From Acidobacteriota bacterium (GTDB lineage Bacteria; Acidobacteriota; UBA4820; DSQY01), in the NCBI GenBank assembly GCA_040752915.1, contig JBFMHB010000025.1, positions 1 through 40,655 on the forward strand: DNA of 40,655 nucleotides, written 5' to 3'. Both the position numbers and the translations under genes were made by a program. Below the pieces are notes generated by a model. It made no database searches, was not told the DNA's origin, and saw nothing but the letters and a program-made list of their open reading frames with translations. Positions 20,460 to 31,216 of this stretch are shown here, piece by piece; position 1 is the first letter of the stretch, and each line of letters begins with the position of its first letter.

Positions 20460-23400
20460 TTACTGCGCCACCACCGTGATGTCGTCGAGGTACATGTTGT
20501 TGCCGTAGGCGCTCGTGCCGAGGAAGGCCACGCGCAGGCTCGTCTGGCCCTTGTAGGAGGTGATGTCCACCGAGTGCTGCTTCCAGCCCGTGGAGCCGTC
20601 GTAGCGGTTGATGGCGGAGCCCACGTTCACCCAGGTTGTGCCGTTGGTGGAGACCTGGGGCTGAACCTTGTCGGCGTAGGTCGAGTAGCCGGTGTCGTGG
20701 TACATCCAGAACTTCAGGGTCACGGTCGTGTAGGACGTGGCGATCGCGAAGCCCGTGGTCCGGTAGTACCGCGTGGCCGAGCCGCTGGCCGCCGTATAGG
20801 AGTTGAACTTGGCCATATAGGTGCCGCCGTGAACCGAGCAGGTGGGATAGGTTCCGGAGGTCACGCGGGACCAGGTGCCCGCCGTGCCCGAGGTGTCCAC
20901 CTGGGCCCAGCCGGTGCTGGATTCCCAGCCGTCGGAGAAGAGGGTCACCTCTCCGCCCGTGGCGGTGGCCGTGAAGTTCTTGCCGGTCTGGTTGGCGCCG
21001 CTGATGGTGACGGCGATGCTGGTGGGCGAGAAGGTGTAGCCGGACTTGCTCGGCGTCACCGTGTAGGAGCCGTTGGCGAGGCCGCTGAAGGTGTAGTTCC
21101 CGCTCGTGTCGGTGGTGGTCGTCGCGGTGGCGGCTCCCGTGAGGCTCATGGTCACGCCCGAGGCCGTGGCGCCGCTCACCGTGCCGCTGATGCTGTAGGT
21201 GGCGGAGGCGGTGGTCACCGTGGCCTTGACCGTGAAGGAACCGGCGGCGTAGCCGTAGGCGGCGATGTTCCAGGTGCCGGCGGCGGGGCTCGTGTGGGTC
21301 AGCAGTTCGCTGGTGGTGCTGCTGTTCCAGGAGCGGCCGGTGTAGCTCGACGTGGTGGGGTTGCCCAGGGTCGGGGAGCCCGTGTAGAGGTCCACGTCCG
21401 CCGTGAGGTTGTAGAGCTCCACCTTGAGTTCGGTGGCGCCGGTGGGCACCGTGATGTCGTAGTGGGCGTAGGCCTGGTAGGCCACGGAGCCGTTCACGGC
21501 CACGCCGCTGGTCAGGGGCGTGTCGCCGGCCACGGCGGTGGCGGTGAAGTTCTTGCCGGTCTGGTTGGCGCCGCTGATGGTGACGGCGATGCTGGTGGGC
21601 GAGAAGGTGTAGCCGGACTTGCTCGGCGTCACCGTGTAGGAGCCGTTGGCGAGGCCGCTGAAGGTGTAGTTCCCGCTCGTATCGGTGGTGGTCGTCGCGG
21701 TGGCGGCTCCCGTGAGGCTCATGGTCACGCCCGAGGCCGTGGCGCCGCTCACCGTGCCGCTGATGCTGTAGGTGGGAACCGCCGTGGCGGTGAAGTTCTT
21801 GCCCGTCTGGTTGGCGCCGCTGATGGTGACGGCGATGCTGGTGGGCGAGAAAGTGTAGCCGGACTTGCTCGGCGTCACCGTGTAGGAGCCGTTGGCGAGG
21901 CCGCTGAAGGTGTAGTTCCCGCTCGTGTCGGTGGTGGTCGTCGCGGTGGCGGCTCCCGTGAGGCTCATGGTCACGCCCGAAGCCGTGGCGCCCGACACCG
22001 TTCCGGAGATGCTGTAGGTCGCGCCCGCCGAAGGCGTGGCGCTCTTCACCGCGGCGAGGGCGCTGAAGCAGGAGGCGTTGGAGCCCACGGCCTGGATCGT
22101 GTAGTAGTAAGTGATGCCCGGGGCCACCGCCGTGTCCGTGTAGGAGGTCGTGGTGGGCTTGGAGATGATCGTGAAGCCGGCGGTGGAGGACATCTCGTTG
22201 CGCATCACGTAGTAGGTCGACGCGTTGGTCACGGCGCCCCAGGAGAGGGCCACCGATCCCGAGCCGGCGGTGGCCGTGAGGACCGGCTGGCTGAGGGTGG
22301 GGCAAGAGGAAGAGTTGGTGTTCACCACCGTGGAGCAGCCGATGGCGTGGCGGTTGAAGGCGGCGTAAATGGCGGCGGCGTGGGGCGTGCCGTTGGAGAG
22401 GTTGCCGTCCTCGTCGTCCACGACGCGGAAGACCGTGAAGTAGTGGGAGGTGCCGCACCCGTCCGAGGCGAAGGTGGAGGTGTTGCAGTAGAAGGCCGCG
22501 CCGGCCGTGGAGCGGGTGAGGTAGAAGAGCCGGTCCGCGATCTGCCAGGAGGTGGCCGAATCGAAGCCCGCCGCGGGCAGGTCACGCGCCGCCAGGTCCC
22601 AGATGGCCTCGCCGCCGATGTACCCTTCGCAGTGGCCTTCCTTGCCGCAGGGGCCCTTGTAGGTCGAGGAGGTGGGGCACTTCGTCTTGATGAAGTTCAG
22701 CGGGGTGTGGGGCGTCGCGGAGACGTGCTTGGCGTAGTCCACGTCGCGGATGCCCGTGCAGGTGGTGCAGGCGTCTCCGTAGCCGGAGCACTTGGAGCCG
22801 TCGGTGAAGAAGCCGGTCCCGATGCACGAATCGTGGGTCATCAGGAAGGCCACCGAGTCGCCGTAGGTCTCGCCCGTCCCTTTGTCGGGGGAGAAGCCGT
22901 TGCCGTCGTTCGTGTCCAGGCCGTGGCCGGCCTCGTGGAGGAACACCGTGGGGAGTTCGCCCGTGTTGGCGCACCCGCCGCCGGACTTGAAGAAGTTGAC
23001 CGTGGAGCCGTCCCAATAGGCGTTGCAGGTCTGGTTCAGGTTGACCTTGTCGGTAAGCTGGGCCTGTAGCCACGTGTTGGAGGGAAGCCAGCCCTGGGCC
23101 TTCACCTTCCAGTTCGTGAGGTGGTAGTAGGTCGAGCGCGCGGCGTGGGTGTTGCCCGCACCGCCCACGCCCGGCGTGGTGCAGTCGGTCCCGGTGGACT
23201 TGGACCAGGCCAGGTCGCCGGGGGCCGTGGAGGTGCTCAGGGACGAGGTTCCGCAGGAGTCGGTGACCTTGATGTATTTGCCCGTGAGGGCCGCCGTCGC
23301 CGTGCCCGTCGTGAAGGCGTAGTTGCCTCCCAGGTCCGTGTACTTCGTCGTGCCGTTGGTCACGGTGATCCACGGCAGGGGCCGGATCACCTCGGTGTCG

Positions 23401-24359
23401 AGGTAGGAGTTGGGGTAAATGCCGCCCGTGACGGAGCCGTAGGCGTTCGCGTCCTCGAAAAGGAGGATCTCGCCCGTGTGGGCATCGATCTTGGCCTGCC
23501 ACGTCCCCATGACGCCGGGGCGACGGAAGGCCAGCGTGTAGACGAGCCTCCAGGCGACGCCGTCGCCCGGCTTCCCGTTGAAGACGCCCTCGTCGGAAAC
23601 GGGGGCCGCGGGAAGGATGCTCAGGGTTCCGTCGTTGACCCACTCGTCCCCGTCTTCAAAGCCGCCCACAAAGCCGGCCAGGATCTCGCGGGCCGTTTCG
23701 AGGGACACGTAAGGGGTCGTGTCGAGGGTGATGGGCCCGAGGAACTCCCCGCCGAACTGGACCAGGTTCCCGTGGTTGACGCGAAAGACAACGTACGACT
23801 TTTCCACCGGGAGTCCGGCGTAGGTGCGGTCAAACTGCACGAACCAGAGGTAGTCGGCCGGGTGAGAAGTGGCTCCCTCGTTGAGGACCAGTTCCTGATT
23901 GGGAACGGTGAGGAGTTCGGGATACCTCTCGAGGAAGGCCCGGGCCTGGCGAACCAGCGTCTGGCGGGTGACCTTGCCGTTGGCGCCGAGGATCTCGCGG
24001 ATGTCCGATCGGCGGAGAGAGTTGCCCTGGCCGGGAATCCACGGGATTCCCTGCCCCTCGATGGAGGCGAAGGCACCGGTCCGGCGCTCCACATAGCCCG
24101 TCCAGGAGGTCCCGTTGTCCGAAAGGAATCGGTCCCATCCCTCGAACAGGGGGACAATGCCCGGCTCCGCCGCGAGGATCGGGTCCTGACGGACCGCGTC
24201 CACGGGCATCAAGAGGGGCTGGACATGGACCTGGCCGGCCGACATCTGAAGATCGTCCAGGTAGTGGTTGCCCTTCTTGAGGGCCTGGGCCGGGGTCCAC
24301 AGGGCTGTGAGCAGCCCGACCGCCAAACACACGACGACTAGGATGCGACTCCTCCGCAT
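20460..24359 (-). CDS. Large secreted zinc metallopeptidase (M36/FTP-like) with repeat-rich C-terminus
   Basis: The 1299-residue product has a signal peptide (about 1-26) and an M36-type propeptide ending KIDAHTGEILLFEDANAYG (about 300). The gluzincin domain has HEAGHGLD (about 474) and the likely third ligand Glu in GETYGDSVAF (about 497). It is followed by a fibronectin III domain (about 690-780), two near-identical about 80-residue carboxypeptidase-regulatory-like repeats (about 780-940), a pre-peptidase C-terminal domain (about 945-1050), a third repeat (about 1053-1133) and a lectin-like C-terminal domain (about 1140-1299). An extracellular protease feeding on protein is the likely role. 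GGGGAGGT precedes the ATG. It is monocistronic with a strong terminator. Confidence 0.88.
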   Translation of the reverse strand: MRRSRILVVVCLAVGLLTALWTPAQALKKGNHYLDDLQMSAGQVHVQPLLMPVDAVRQDPILAAEPGIVPLFEGWDRFLSDNGTSWTGYVERRTGAFASIEGQGIPWIPGQGNSLRRSDIREILGANGKVTRQTLVRQARAFLERYPELLTVPNQELVLNEGATSHPADYLWFVQFDRTYAGLPVEKSYVVFRVNHGNLVQFGGEFLGPITLDTTPYVSLETAREILAGFVGGFEDGDEWVNDGTLSILPAAPVSDEGVFNGKPGDGVAWRLVYTLAFRRPGVMGTWQAKIDAHTGEILLFEDANAYGSVTGGIYPNSYLDTEVIRPLPWITVTNGTTKYTDLGGNYAFTTGTATAALTGKYIKVTDSCGTSSLSTSTAPGDLAWSKSTGTDCTTPGVGGAGNTHAARSTYYHLTNWKVKAQGWLPSNTWLQAQLTDKVNLNQTCNAYWDGSTVNFFKSGGGCANTGELPTVFLHEAGHGLDTNDGNGFSPDKGTGETYGDSVAFLMTHDSCIGTGFFTDGSKCSGYGDACTTCTGIRDVDYAKHVSATPHTPLNFIKTKCPTSSTYKGPCGKEGHCEGYIGGEAIWDLAARDLPAAGFDSATSWQIADRLFYLTRSTAGAAFYCNTSTFASDGCGTSHYFTVFRVVDDEDGNLSNGTPHAAAIYAAFNRHAIGCSTVVNTNSSSCPTLSQPVLTATAGSGSVALSWGAVTNASTYYVMRNEMSSTAGFTIISKPTTTSYTDTAVAPGITYYYTIQAVGSNASCFSALAAVKSATPSAGATYSISGTVSGATASGVTMSLTGAATATTTTDTSGNYTFSGLANGSYTVTPSKSGYTFSPTSIAVTISGANQTGKNFTATAVPTYSISGTVSGATASGVTMSLTGAATATTTTDTSGNYTFSGLANGSYTVTPSKSGYTFSPTSIAVTISGANQTGKNFTATAVAGDTPLTSGVAVNGSVAYQAYAHYDITVPTGATELKVELYNLTADVDLYTGSPTLGNPTTSSYTGRSWNSSTTSELLTHTSPAAGTWNIAAYGYAAGSFTVKATVTTASATYSISGTVSGATASGVTMSLTGAATATTTTDTSGNYTFSGLANGSYTVTPSKSGYTFSPTSIAVTISGANQTGKNFTATATGGEVTLFSDGWESSTGWAQVDTSGTAGTWSRVTSGTYPTCSVHGGTYMAKFNSYTAASGSATRYYRTTGFAIATSYTTVTLKFWMYHDTGYSTYADKVQPQVSTNGTTWVNVGSAINRYDGSTGWKQHSVDITSYKGQTSLRVAFLGTSAYGNNMYLDDITVVAQ
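20961..21201 (-). repeat. Intragenic repeat copy A (C-terminal)
   Basis: About 240 bp, nearly identical to copies B and C, encoding the domain that begins TYSISGTVSGATASGVTMSL. Separated from copy B by the pre-peptidase C-terminal domain. Confidence 0.9.
21534..21774 (-). repeat. Intragenic repeat copy B (middle)
   Basis: About 240 bp, differing from copy A at only a few positions. Directly adjacent to copy C. Near-identity at synonymous sites implies recent duplication or gene conversion. Confidence 0.9.
21784..22019 (-). repeat. Intragenic repeat copy C (N-terminal)
   Basis: Same repeat as A and B. It diverges mainly at the end coding for its first residues (21985-22012), which marks a likely conversion boundary. 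Confidence 0.88.
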
Positions 24360-25492: not shown

Positions 25493-26284
25493 TCAGACCA
25501 CGCCGTTCCGCACGGCGAGGCCCCTCCGGGCCAGTTCCCGGACGACGGCCCCGTAGGCCGTCGCCACGTCGTCGGGGCGATGAGCGTCGGAGGAGAGGAC
25601 CACCTCCCGGCCCCCCAGGTCCCGGTAGGCGTCCAGGATGGCCCATCCAGGGTAGGGCTCGCTGAATCCCTTCCTGTAGGCCCCGGTGTTCACTTCGAGA
25701 AAGACGCCCATGTCCAGGCAGGCCGTGAGGGTCTCGCGGATGGCCCTCCCGTAGTGTTTCATCCAGAATTCTCCCGTCACGACGTGCTTCCGCCGGGAAT
25801 AGCCCTTCGGGAAATCCAGGTGGCCGAGGCAGTCGTAGAGATTGCTCTCCACGGTGCGCCGGCAGGCGCGGAAGTAGTCCGCCAGGCAGTCCTCCAGGGG
25901 GATCCCCTCGCCCTCCGCCCGGGCCACGAAGGTGCCGATCTCCTCGCGCCCCATGTAGTGCACCGAGCCGATGACCCAGTGGAAGCGCCGCTCATGGAGG
26001 AACTCGCGGATCTCGGGCAGGGCCCGATCCTGGTGGGTCACCTCGGCGCCGAACCGGATCTTCATGTCCGGCACGACGGCCACGGCCCCCTCCCAGGCCT
26101 CCCGCGCCCGGTCGTAATCGTAGGCGCCGAAGCCCGGGTCGAGGGGGTCGAATTCCACGTGGTCCGTCAGGACGAACCCGCCCACCCCCACGCGGCGCGC
26201 GGAGGCCACCAGGTCCGCCAGCCTCGACTCGCTGTCCCAGGAAAACCGGCTGTGTACGTGGTGGTCGACGAAGGCCTCGTACAT
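25493..26284 (-). CDS. PHP-domain phosphoesterase, histidinol-phosphatase (HisJ) type
   Basis: The 263-residue protein has the PHP metal motifs: FVDHHVHSRFSWDS at the start, LTDHVEF (about 40), FGAEV (about 78), GSVHYM (about 106), GHLDFPK (about 153) and SSDAHRPDD near the C-terminus. These fit the HisJ/HisK family of histidinol-phosphate phosphatases in histidine synthesis. No other his gene is present, so the substrate is not assured. The ATG at 26284 has no Shine-Dalgarno, and a TATACT box ends 7 nt upstream. Confidence 0.82.
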   Translation of the reverse strand: MYEAFVDHHVHSRFSWDSESRLADLVASARRVGVGGFVLTDHVEFDPLDPGFGAYDYDRAREAWEGAVAVVPDMKIRFGAEVTHQDRALPEIREFLHERRFHWVIGSVHYMGREEIGTFVARAEGEGIPLEDCLADYFRACRRTVESNLYDCLGHLDFPKGYSRRKHVVTGEFWMKHYGRAIRETLTACLDMGVFLEVNTGAYRKGFSEPYPGWAILDAYRDLGGREVVLSSDAHRPDDVATAYGAVVRELARRGLAVRNGVV

Positions 26285-26489: not shown

Positions 26490-29141
26490 TCAGCCCATGA
26501 GGCCGAAGGCGATGAGCATGGCGACGCCGATGCCCGTGAGGCTCTCGCCGGCGATGAGCCCGGAGGCGACGGGAACGGTGTAGGCCTCCCCGAAGGCGGG
26601 GCGCCGCTTCTCCAGGATCCAGGCGATGAAGGCTCCCAGGAACATGCTTACGGAGTTGAAGGCCGGAATGACGAAGGCGATGCCCATGGCCGTCGGGGAG
26701 GGCATGAACCGCCGGGCCTTGGGGAAAGCCCTCTCCAGGAGGGTCAGGACGATGCCCAGCAGCCCCCCCCAGAACAGGCCCCAGCGGGCCGAGACCGGGA
26801 GGGCCTGGAGGCCGTTCGAGAGCAGGAGCGCCACCCCCGCCCAGGTCTGGGCGGCGGGCGCGGGCAGTTTGTCCGTGCCCAGGACGTCCGCGCTCGGAAT
26901 CAGGAGATTGTAGACGGGCGCCGACACCAGCGAGCCGACGGCCACCCCAAGGAGCATGCCCAGGAATTGCTTCCGTGGGCTCGCGCCCACCATGAAACCG
27001 CACCGCAGGGCCTGAAGCAGGTCGGCGGAGGACGTGGCGGCGCCCGCCGTCACGTTCGCGGTCATGAGGTTGGCGCTCATGTTCCCGGGGGCGATGGCTC
27101 CGTACATGAGCTGGGTGATCTTGCCCATGGCGCCCACGGGCGTGATGTCCGTTTCGCCCGTGGCCCGGCAGGCGACGATGGCCAGGAAGAAGGACATGAC
27201 GACGGCGAGGGCCCCCATCCACCAGTGGATTCCGAAGAACCACACCTGGAGAAGGACGGCCACGAGGCCGGCGGCGAGGAACCCCATCGCGAACCACGAC
27301 CCGGGGACCTCTACCGACGCGAGGGGGTCGGATGGCCCCGAGGCCGCGCCCTTCGGCCGGAACATGGCCGCGAGCCCCGAGAAGGCCCTCAGGACCGTGC
27401 GCCACTGCATGAAAAAGGCGAGGAGGCCGGCCGTGACCATCATGGCCACCCCGGGCCACATGAGCCACCGCACGATGTTCCGGAACCCCCCGTAGGGCAC
27501 GCGGTGGGCCTGTCCCGCCTCGAACCCCAGCAGGCGTCCCCCGTCCGTGTCCTGGGCCTCGATGGAGGCATCCCACGTCCGGAAAGCCGTGGCGCGGGCC
27601 ACGAGACGCCCCCGCTCCATCTCCATGGCGATCTTCCCGTGAAAGGGGTTGTCGCGGCCGCAGGGGAGTCGCTCGGCGTTCAGGTCCGCCAGCAGGGCCT
27701 CTCCGCTCTCGTAGGTGCGGTCACGGTTCCAGCCGAACGTGAGGATCTCGGTGCGAACTGGACCTCTCGGGCCTTCGGCCTGGCCCGCGGCGAAGGCGAG
27801 CCTGGCGTTTGCAGGCACGGTCAGGGGAAATCGCAGGACGCGCGCGCCCGCTCCCGGTTCGAAGGCGAGGGCCGGTCTCTCCGTCGCCGCGGCGACGCGC
27901 AGAACCGCCGGGCCGGAAAGAGGGGAGGCAAGGGCCGCCCGGAGCCGGTTGGCGGTCCGGTCCAGCGTCACGGTCACCACGCCGGAGAGCGGATTGGGCC
28001 CGCCGTCGGCCAGGAGCGGCGCCGAGAGGTCCGCCTCCAGGGCGCGCGCGTCGCCATACTCCGAGGGAGCGGTCCACGTTCGCGCCACCAGGAGGGAGGG
28101 GCGGCCCGGCTCCTCGATCTCGAAGGCCAGGGTCTGTCCGGCCTCCACCCGGAGCGGGAAGACGGCGTCCTCCGAGGCGAGGATGGAGGGTGCGCCCTCG
28201 AAGGCCGCCGCCGCCGCCAGCGTCGGCGGATCGTGGGGGATGTCCCCTTTCGCGATGTACCGAGGAGCCAGGAACCCGTACCCGACCACCGCCGCGAGCA
28301 GGAGGCTGGCCCCCGCCCGGATGCCCATGATCGCGCCCGCTCCGACCATGATGAGGCTGCCCTCGAAGGTCAGGGTGAGGCGGCCGAGGGGCATTCCGAA
28401 AAGGGACCAGGAGGGAGGGACCAGCGTTGCGGGAATGATCTGGGGCCAGCCCCGCCACTGCCAAACGCCGAACTCCTTGACCACGTGTCCGCCGACGATC
28501 TTGGGGAATCCGAGGACCCCGTCCCTCAGCCACGCGATGACGACGCCGACTCCCAGGGCGCCGAAGAGAGCCCGGGCCTTCTTCACGGCGTCCCCGCCCG
28601 CGGCGTACATGCCCTTGAGCACTTCCGAGGTGGCGTAGCCCGTGGGGAACTTGAGGTCCTCCACGTTGATCATCTGGCGTTTCATGGGGATGGCCATGAA
28701 GAGGCCCAGGAAGAGGATCGTCGCCACCCACAGCGCCAACTGCCAGGTGGGGAGCGCCTTGCCCGAAACCATGAGCAGGGCCGGGACCGCGTTGGACAGG
28801 CCCGCCGAAGCGATGAAGGCGCAGGCCGAGGCGATGGTCACGAGAAAGTTGGTCTCCAGGATGCCCATGTCCTTCTTCACGAAGAAGGGGAGGGCCGTCC
28901 GGATCGCCTTGAAGAGGGCGAAGGCCATGATGGCCGCGGTGATCGTCACGCCGAGGCTCCATCCCGCCTTGAAGCCCACGTATAGGTTGGAGAGGCACAT
29001 CACCGCGCCGATGAGCGCCCCGAGCAGGATGGACCGGACCGTGATCTCCCTCTCCTGCCCCCCCCGATAGACCTTCGCGAGCCATTCCCGCTCCCGCGTC
29101 TCCGCCGCCTCCGCCGTCGTGGACAGGGGTTTCTCGGCCAT
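26490..29141 (-). CDS. OPT-family transporter with a duplicated extramembrane insert
   Basis: The oligopeptide transporter (OPT) family moves peptides or metal chelates by proton symport. The 883-residue product has OPT membrane segments from about residue 35 (GALIGAVMCLSNLYVGFKAG) to 300 and again from about 550 to the end. Between them lies a soluble region of about 240 residues made of two similar units, starting FPLRVEAGQTLAF (about 329) and FPLTVPANARLAF (about 437), each ending LAFEPGA- or LGFEAGQ-like. Most OPT proteins lack this. The start is the ATG at 29141 behind GGGAGGGACGAG; a GTG at 29168, 7 nt after a TATGCT box, is a leaderless alternative. Confidence 0.85.
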   Translation of the reverse strand: MAEKPLSTTAEAAETREREWLAKVYRGGQEREITVRSILLGALIGAVMCLSNLYVGFKAGWSLGVTITAAIMAFALFKAIRTALPFFVKKDMGILETNFLVTIASACAFIASAGLSNAVPALLMVSGKALPTWQLALWVATILFLGLFMAIPMKRQMINVEDLKFPTGYATSEVLKGMYAAGGDAVKKARALFGALGVGVVIAWLRDGVLGFPKIVGGHVVKEFGVWQWRGWPQIIPATLVPPSWSLFGMPLGRLTLTFEGSLIMVGAGAIMGIRAGASLLLAAVVGYGFLAPRYIAKGDIPHDPPTLAAAAAFEGAPSILASEDAVFPLRVEAGQTLAFEIEEPGRPSLLVARTWTAPSEYGDARALEADLSAPLLADGGPNPLSGVVTVTLDRTANRLRAALASPLSGPAVLRVAAATERPALAFEPGAGARVLRFPLTVPANARLAFAAGQAEGPRGPVRTEILTFGWNRDRTYESGEALLADLNAERLPCGRDNPFHGKIAMEMERGRLVARATAFRTWDASIEAQDTDGGRLLGFEAGQAHRVPYGGFRNIVRWLMWPGVAMMVTAGLLAFFMQWRTVLRAFSGLAAMFRPKGAASGPSDPLASVEVPGSWFAMGFLAAGLVAVLLQVWFFGIHWWMGALAVVMSFFLAIVACRATGETDITPVGAMGKITQLMYGAIAPGNMSANLMTANVTAGAATSSADLLQALRCGFMVGASPRKQFLGMLLGVAVGSLVSAPVYNLLIPSADVLGTDKLPAPAAQTWAGVALLLSNGLQALPVSARWGLFWGGLLGIVLTLLERAFPKARRFMPSPTAMGIAFVIPAFNSVSMFLGAFIAWILEKRRPAFGEAYTVPVASGLIAGESLTGIGVAMLIAFGLMG

Positions 29142-29205
29142 CTCGTCCCTCCCGCTTCCCAGAGTCACGCGCCCTAGCATACCTCAACCCTGGGAGAAAC
29201 CGCGA

Positions 29206-29307
29206 AATCCCCAATCCCCGATTCCCCTTCTTCATCTTTCGCCTTTCGCCTTCCGCCTTCCAACTCACAAATCCGAAATCCGAAATTCGAAATTCGAAAT
29301 TCGAAAT
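29206..29307. repeat. Heptamer array, about 14 units in phase
   Basis: Period-7 units run without phase loss: AATCCCC (2), GATTCCC, CTTCTTC, ATCTTTC, GCCTTTC, GCCTTCC (2), AACTCAC, AAATCCG (2), AAATTCG (3). It fills the gap between the divergent OPT and M3 genes and ends 18 nt before the M3 promoter. Confidence 0.8.
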
Positions 29308-29324
29308 GCCCCTCTCCTCCTCCG

Positions 29325-29333
29325 TGCTACAAT
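29325..29333 (+). promoter_or_regulatory. Extended -10 promoter of the M3 peptidase gene
   Basis: TGCTACAAT is TGn plus TACAAT (5/6), 23 nt before the ATG at 29357. Confidence 0.5.
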
Positions 29334-29356
29334 TTCGCCTCACGTGGAGGCTCGCC

Positions 29357-31216
29357 ATGAAAGCGCTCTGGCTCACCCTGGCCCTCTTCGGGCTCACCGC
29401 CGCGTCCTACGCCGCACCCGCCTTCGATCCCCTGCCCGGGGGACAGCGCCAGGCGTACCGCTTCGACCTGTCCAGGATGTACCCGGACGAGGCGGCCTGG
29501 GGGGCCGATGTGGAGCGCGCGCGGGCCCTCGCCGCCTCCGTGAAGTCCCGCAAGGGAAGGCTCTTGGCCTCCCCGGGGGACCTGCTCGGCGCCATGGAGG
29601 CCCACCGGGACCTGCGGGACGTCCTCGTCAAACTCTACGCCTACGGGGAGTTCCGCGCCGCCGTCAACACGTCGGATCGCGCGGCCTACGAGGCTTTCCT
29701 CGCTCTCCAGGCGGAGGCGGGCGCGCAGACGAGTTTCCTCCAGGTGGAGCTCAAGGCCCTCACCCCCGAGGCGCTGGAGGGCATGATCGCGAAGGAGCCC
29801 CGCCTCGCGGCCTTCCGCTACCAGATCGAGGACATCCTGCGCCAGGGCCCCCACTCCCTCTCGGATTCCGAGGAGGCCCTCCTGAGCCGCCTGGACCCGG
29901 ACCTCAATTCATGGCAGCAGGTTCTCTTCCAGAAGGTCTTCGACCGGACGGCCTTCGCCGAGATCTCCGCCGACGGCAGGACCTACAACGTCCACCGCGA
30001 CTTCGAAACCCTCATCCGCCACCCGGACCGCGACGTCCGCCGGAGGGCCTACGAGTCTTACTACGCGGCTTTCGCCGAGATCCGCGACCTGGTGGGCTTC
30101 GCCCTCCTGCGCGAAATGAAGACGCTCAACGCCCAGGCGGCCTTGAGGGGCTTCCCGACCTACTACCACCAGACCCTCTTCGACCGGTACCTGACGCGCG
30201 AGCAGGCCGACAACCTCTACGCCCAGATCGAGGCCCAGGCCGGCCTCTACCAGGCCTACCAGCGCCTCCGGATGGAGCGCGTGCGGCCCCGGATCGGCGG
30301 CGCGGAGCCCGAAATCTGGGACATGGACCTGGCCTCCGGCGACGGTCCCGAGCCCCGCTTCACCGCCGACGAGGCCGTGGCCCTCATCAGCGACGCCCTC
30401 GGCGTGCTCGGCCCCGAATACCTGGCGGAACTCAAGGCCCTCCTCGATCCGAAGAACGGCCGCATGGACATCGTGGGAGGCCCCAACCGGGACCAGGGCG
30501 CCTTCTGCGAGGGGTACCACGGCTTCTTCCTGGACAACTACCAGGGGCTTCTCACCAACGTCTCCACCATCGCCCACGAGGCGGGCCACGGAATCCACGA
30601 CCAGCTCGTTTTCAACAACAAGAAGAGCGTCCTGTACGGAGAGGGCCCCGGATACATGACCGAGTCCTTCGCCATGTTCAACGAGTGGCTCCTGCGCGAC
30701 CGCCTTCTGAAATCCTCCGGCGACGAGGCTCTCAGGCGCTACGTGCGGGAGGACGCGCTCAACGAGATGATGTACCTGTGGGAGATCGCGAGAAGGGCCA
30801 AGTTCGAGATGGTGGCCTACGACCGCGTGGCCTCGGGCGAGATCACCGACGAGGCGGGCTTCGGGAAGGCGTGCGTGGACGTGGGGAAGGCCTACGACGT
30901 GTGGTTCCAGAAGTACCCCTGGCTCGAGGACCACTGGATCCGCAAGCACCACTACTGGAGCGTGCCCACCTACTACGTCAACTACGTGGTGGCCCACGTT
31001 CTCGCCCTCACGTACTACCAGCGCTACCTGGAAGACCCGGAGGGCTTCTCCGCCAAGTACACCGCAATGGTCCGCAACGGCTTCGACCGGCCAGCGGCCG
31101 CCCTTCTCAAGGACTTCCTCTCCATCGACCTGAACGACCCGAAGGTTCTCCAGGGGACCTTCGACCTCATCGGCCGGACCTTCCGGGAAACCGGAGAGCG
31201 CCCCGTCAAGCCATGA
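29357..31216 (+). CDS. Secreted M3 family oligoendopeptidase F-like peptidase
   Basis: A zinc oligopeptidase. The 619-residue product begins with a signal peptide (MKALWLTLALFGLTAASYAA), so unlike cytosolic PepF it should act in the envelope. The zinc motif HEAGHG is at residue 407 and the third ligand Glu lies in PGYMTESFAMFNEWLL about 28 residues on. The oligoendopeptidase F N-terminal domain (about 100-190) is present. The in-frame ATG at 29306 lies in the heptamer array and lacks a ribosome site; the start at 29357 follows GTGGAGG. Its TGA overlaps the ATG of the LOG gene. Confidence 0.92.
   Translation: MKALWLTLALFGLTAASYAAPAFDPLPGGQRQAYRFDLSRMYPDEAAWGADVERARALAASVKSRKGRLLASPGDLLGAMEAHRDLRDVLVKLYAYGEFRAAVNTSDRAAYEAFLALQAEAGAQTSFLQVELKALTPEALEGMIAKEPRLAAFRYQIEDILRQGPHSLSDSEEALLSRLDPDLNSWQQVLFQKVFDRTAFAEISADGRTYNVHRDFETLIRHPDRDVRRRAYESYYAAFAEIRDLVGFALLREMKTLNAQAALRGFPTYYHQTLFDRYLTREQADNLYAQIEAQAGLYQAYQRLRMERVRPRIGGAEPEIWDMDLASGDGPEPRFTADEAVALISDALGVLGPEYLAELKALLDPKNGRMDIVGGPNRDQGAFCEGYHGFFLDNYQGLLTNVSTIAHEAGHGIHDQLVFNNKKSVLYGEGPGYMTESFAMFNEWLLRDRLLKSSGDEALRRYVREDALNEMMYLWEIARRAKFEMVAYDRVASGEITDEAGFGKACVDVGKAYDVWFQKYPWLEDHWIRKHHYWSVPTYYVNYVVAHVLALTYYQRYLEDPEGFSAKYTAMVRNGFDRPAAALLKDFLSIDLNDPKVLQGTFDLIGRTFRETGERPVKP

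Follow-up and report, generated by a model that had tools for sequence, protein, structure and literature searches.

A gene on a 40,655-nucleotide contig of an Acidobacteriota bacterium, analysed here over its whole length (the window), codes for a transporter of the OPT type whose membrane part is interrupted by about 250 non-OPT residues. The question raised by this locus is what the added stretch is, where it lies and what it may contribute to transport. An earlier note, made from the sequence alone, had described two similar units between the membrane halves that could bind a substrate or a partner on one face of the membrane. As an architecture, the insert is well supported as an authentic, conserved and lineage-specific elaboration of an OPT transporter. 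The only solved OPT/YSL structure found in this analysis is that of a plant protein, in which the TM6-TM7 loop is the reported specificity determinant; a bacterial lineage in which this very loop appears to have grown into two folded domains would offer a natural experiment on how the loop controls selection or gating.

Identity and Boundaries of the Transporter

The transporter gene occupies positions 26490–29180 of the minus strand as an open reading frame of 896 aa. The second ATG of this frame (Met14, at 29141) coincides with the start codon position in most relatives, which makes a start at 29141 likelier than one at 29180 and agrees with the boundary that the earlier note had drawn. The only Pfam family recognized in the protein is OPT (PF03169), matched with 315.1 bits against a cut-off of 25.8 (E = 1.4e-93). 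TIGR00728 is matched with 229.2 bits, above its cut-off of 128.35, and the OPT equivalog TIGR00733 reaches 149.1 bits, below its cut-off of 182.5. Taking a profile score over the curated cut-off in both membrane parts as the mark of the family, the window protein belongs to OPT, and by its sequence the 896-residue protein is a predicted OPT (oligopeptide/Yellow-Stripe-like) inner-membrane importer. A profile search of the PDB with the family profile has returned barley YS1 (HvYS1) as the only match (E = 1.8e-27), and the top Foldseek match of the full-length model, whose membrane part is of low confidence, is the same protein (7wsr, E = 2.4e-4).

On the DNA, the match to the Pfam OPT profile falls into two pieces, the first running from 29048 to 28251 and the second resuming at 27476. 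The N-terminal membrane part (residues 46–311, 28248–29045, minus strand) covers profile positions 1–254 and has been delimited by these together with hydropathy and the HvYS1 alignment; it extends to the end of the TM6 equivalent, GYGFLAPRYIAK. The C-terminal membrane part (residues 565–892, 26505–27488, minus strand) begins with GGFRNIVRWLMWPGVAMM and covers profile positions 284–622. Residues ∼313–562 are therefore flanked on both sides by OPT matches.

The Insert and Its Two Units

All parts of the insert are encoded on the minus strand. It starts with GDIPHDPP and two beta strands ahead of the first unit (residues 312–340, 28161–28247), the strands being taken from the model and GDI being conserved. 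Unit 1 follows at residues 341–448 (27837–28160; profile match E = 2.6e-30, pLDDT about 90 or more) and unit 2 at residues 451–561 (27498–27830; profile match E = 3.7e-43), the latter being, by alignment, the unit retained in the single-unit relative L029. The two begin with FPLRVEAGQTLAF at residue 341 and FPLTVPANARLAF at residue 451, and the middle motifs pointed out in the earlier note have been located at residues 395 (PNPLSG) and 510 (DNPFHG). Its claim that the units resemble each other is borne out by their best local alignment, which scores 86 (BLOSUM62) as compared to 29.0 ± 5.6 for shuffled sequences, with 0 of 1000 shuffles reaching 86. The units are the product of one tandem duplication.

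Predicted Fold

The insert alone, modelled by AlphaFold from an alignment of ten sequences, has given a mean pLDDT of 92.7 and a pTM of 0.79. The model opens with two strands, after which the order in each unit is four strands, one helix and three more strands; unit 2 carries an additional short helix and strand. By this model the insert is soluble and rich in beta structure, folds into two domains and is set apart from the membrane domain; sequence and the order of secondary structure elements are common to both units. Neither of the two outcomes that the earlier note had named as refuting its reading has thus been obtained. In a full-length model (11-sequence alignment), the insert has retained a pLDDT of about 80–90, and the membrane part has mostly remained below 50, probably due to the small number of only 11 aligned sequences. 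This model thus bears on the fold of the insert itself rather than on its position relative to the membrane.

No family for the insert has been found in Pfam, NCBIfam or PHROG searches, and a profile search of solved structures with the single unit has returned nothing credible. The same search with the whole insert has matched many nanobodies (best E = 8.2e-5, next 0.0096), and Foldseek of the insert has retrieved tandem beta-sandwich proteins, mainly Fabs, as weak matches (TM 0.2–0.3, rmsd 12–17). We are inclined to read this likeness to immunoglobulin V domains as a coincidence of pattern in a much-sampled fold or a generic resemblance between tandem beta-domains. A Flagellin_IN (PF07196) or FliD-like identity is not supported either, as hhalign gives a probability of 0.1% against the Flagellin_IN domains of the phylum and no unit has a Pfam Flagellin_IN match. 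We treat the predicted fold as beta-sandwich-like.

Distribution and History

A profile of the unit has matched 11 of 396 Acidobacteriota genomes, which belong to two families of one order, and each time the match lies in this OPT gene; in a twelfth genome of the order (G012), all that is present of the gene is its C-terminal part, including the end of unit 2. A scan of 84,980 species by peptide pattern, which reaches close relatives only, has yielded loci solely from metagenome-assembled genomes labelled Acidobacteria/Acidobacteriota, Aminicenantes or Thermoanaerobaculaceae. Within the phylum as searched here, the insert is inherited in one order of Acidobacteriota. Among the weak extra candidates from a looser search with the unit alone (40 relatives), the four inspected have been rejected as chance matches: one ORF resembles an oxidoreductase, another a hydrolase, the third codes for a sensor kinase and the last is probably spurious. 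Among phages, tblastn has produced three matches at E of about 7–8, also taken as chance; tblastn against plasmids gave no match, and a scan of viral contigs with the insert found no relative.

Relatives of the transporter that lack the insert occur in the phylum as well. They share 33–51% identity over the C-terminal part, and the seven that were aligned have 4–11 residues at the site. In a tree of the units, the copies of unit 1 are united in a clade separate from unit 2 (support 0.955 in FastTree, 89 in UFBoot), from which it follows that a single duplication predates the radiation of the insert-bearing genes of the order. L029, whose only unit is of the unit-2 type, is placed together with the two-unit L026 (support 1.0), so that the simplest reading is a loss of unit 1 in L029; on account of the same grouping, an ancestry from a single-unit state has been judged unlikely.

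Site in the Membrane Protein

The family profile aligns to HvYS1 as far as residue 312, where KGDW of HvYS1 corresponds to the KGDIPH that precedes the insert; the alignment is taken up again at residue 393. Based on this alignment and on the helix count, the insert is assigned to the TM6-TM7 linker, which in HvYS1 lies in the N-half and is invisible in the structure (PMC9691689). The scaffold of HvYS1 is built from an M-shaped N-half and a W-shaped C-half (PMC9691689). The site given in the earlier note, between the membrane halves, is thus correct in that OPT matches stand on both sides, and has to be moved, by homology to HvYS1, into the N-terminal half. The specificity of HvYS1 is reported to be set by the extracellular TM6-TM7 loop (review PMC10341464, citing Harada 2007), and as the homologous loop is extracellular, the insert would be periplasmic; the one face of the membrane of which the earlier note had spoken would then be the extracytoplasmic one. 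Counts of charges by the positive-inside rule agree weakly with this orientation. The insert probably sits outside the inner membrane, on the periplasmic side, over the mouth of the central cavity.

Gene Neighbourhood

Directly downstream of the transporter gene, a PHP-domain phosphoesterase (HisJ-like, resembling histidinol phosphatase) is encoded at 25493–26284 on the minus strand. A PHP gene follows the insert-bearing OPT gene in every locus with enough flank, at a distance of about 8–11 bases in one of the two families (f2), and has not been found beside the insert-free relatives that were fetched. On the other side, the gene of an oligoendopeptidase of the M3 family that apparently carries a signal peptide (29306–31216) diverges from the OPT gene across a short shared upstream region. 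As this neighbour has not been found at the loci of relatives, a functional tie between the OPT gene and the M3 peptidase has been dropped. That the conserved neighbour is the PHP phosphoesterase rather than the secreted-type peptidase counts against the explanation of the insert that is preferred below. Further along the window, a 1299-residue protein (20460–24359, minus strand) appears by eye to be secreted and metallopeptidase-like, with a carboxypeptidase-regulatory-like repeat present in three nearly identical copies and a MAM-like stretch at its C-terminus.

Divergence and Selection

Selection has been analysed in two close pairs of metagenome-assembled genomes, L021/L022 and L025/L027. 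In these pairs, dN/dS amounts to 0.14–0.33 in the units and 0.02–0.09 in the membrane parts, and purifying selection keeps the reading frame of the insert open. The units nevertheless change far more rapidly than the membrane part does (42–48% vs. 81–82% identity between the window protein and L021), which is why a strict catalytic or binding role of the units is not evident. Such fast divergence, together with the loss of one unit in L029, would suit a neutral passenger tolerated in a permissive loop; with an open frame at this dN/dS and retention of the insert across two families of the order, we regard this explanation as very improbable.

Synonymous divergence peaks in the insert in both pairs, at dS of about 0.4–0.67 in the most divergent 50-codon windows, as compared to about 0.1–0.2 for the bulk of the membrane part and 0.15–0.19 for the downstream PHP gene. 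Over the compared genes (L021:3534–6155 vs. L022 and L025:5016–7664 vs. L027), the value for the insert is about 2–5 times that for the remainder of the gene. Recombination that brings in divergent insert alleles would explain the peak, although this is unproven and a difference in codon constraint might do so too, GC3 differing between the gene parts (0.82–0.89 vs. 0.87–0.96). One may extend the dS peak, which has appeared in two independent pairs, to an exposed, exchangeable module of which strains trade alleles by recombination under outside pressure, such as that of phages or bacteriocins that use the transporter or of a changing peptide supply. We consider this unlikely, since dN/dS stays below 1 in pairs that are only two in number, both of metagenome-assembled genomes, and since the domain probably faces the periplasm and not the cell surface, which makes contact with phages less likely.

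Proposed Function

The reading that we prefer, at a probability of roughly 0.55, is that of an OPT importer with a covalent periplasmic accessory. The periplasmic TM6-TM7 linker would have grown from 4–11 residues to about 250, and its two domains would capture or select the substrate, gate the cavity or dock a partner near the cavity mouth. Judging from the function of relatives, the core beneath would carry peptides or metal chelates, and its transport would be proton-coupled and elevator-like, as it is in HvYS1 (PMC9691689). It is conceivable, and clearly less probable than such an accessory, that the insert has a role in structure or assembly, serving as a dimer contact, a spacer or an anchor to peptidoglycan or envelope proteins, with no part in the choice of substrate. 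Tandem beta-sandwich-like domains commonly act as spacers, and an insert that tolerates rapid change and, in L029, the loss of a whole unit would be compatible with this role. On the other hand, the W-D, N-P and LGF/G positions are conserved in unit 2 in the alignment of relatives, and in the HvYS1 dimer it is scaffold helices and the C-terminal strand that make the contacts, the linker taking no part in them (PMC9691689). To go beyond the accessory and regard the paired units as a new periplasmic domain family, so far seen only in an OPT specificity loop, whose members are built-in substrate-capture domains with alleles swapped between strains by recombination, appears improbable to us.

Comparison with Known Systems

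The order of beta-alpha-beta elements in the units is similar, by eye, to that of two groups of known domains, for which homology is not established. Head domains of FliD (9m67, 5h5v) have been retrieved by Foldseek with the full model (probability 0.72–0.85, E 0.013–0.042), and phage tail-sheath and baseplate models with the insert (probability 0.99–1.00, E down to 1.5e-4, TM ≤ 0.33). The closest insert-free OPT proteins (e.g., L013, L083, L085, L086) have 46–51% identity over the C-terminal part and share with the window protein the landmarks that flank the site, differing from it in having 4–11 residues where it has about 250. Together with the one-unit relative L029, such proteins offer natural comparisons. 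HvYS1 (PDB 7wsr/7wst/7wsu) belongs to the same OPT/YSL membrane family, and its TM6-TM7 linker corresponds to the insert site. Its unaligned stretch of about 80 residues (312–393) includes TM7, and the structure resolves no folded soluble domain in it, whereas two folded domains are predicted at this place in the window protein.
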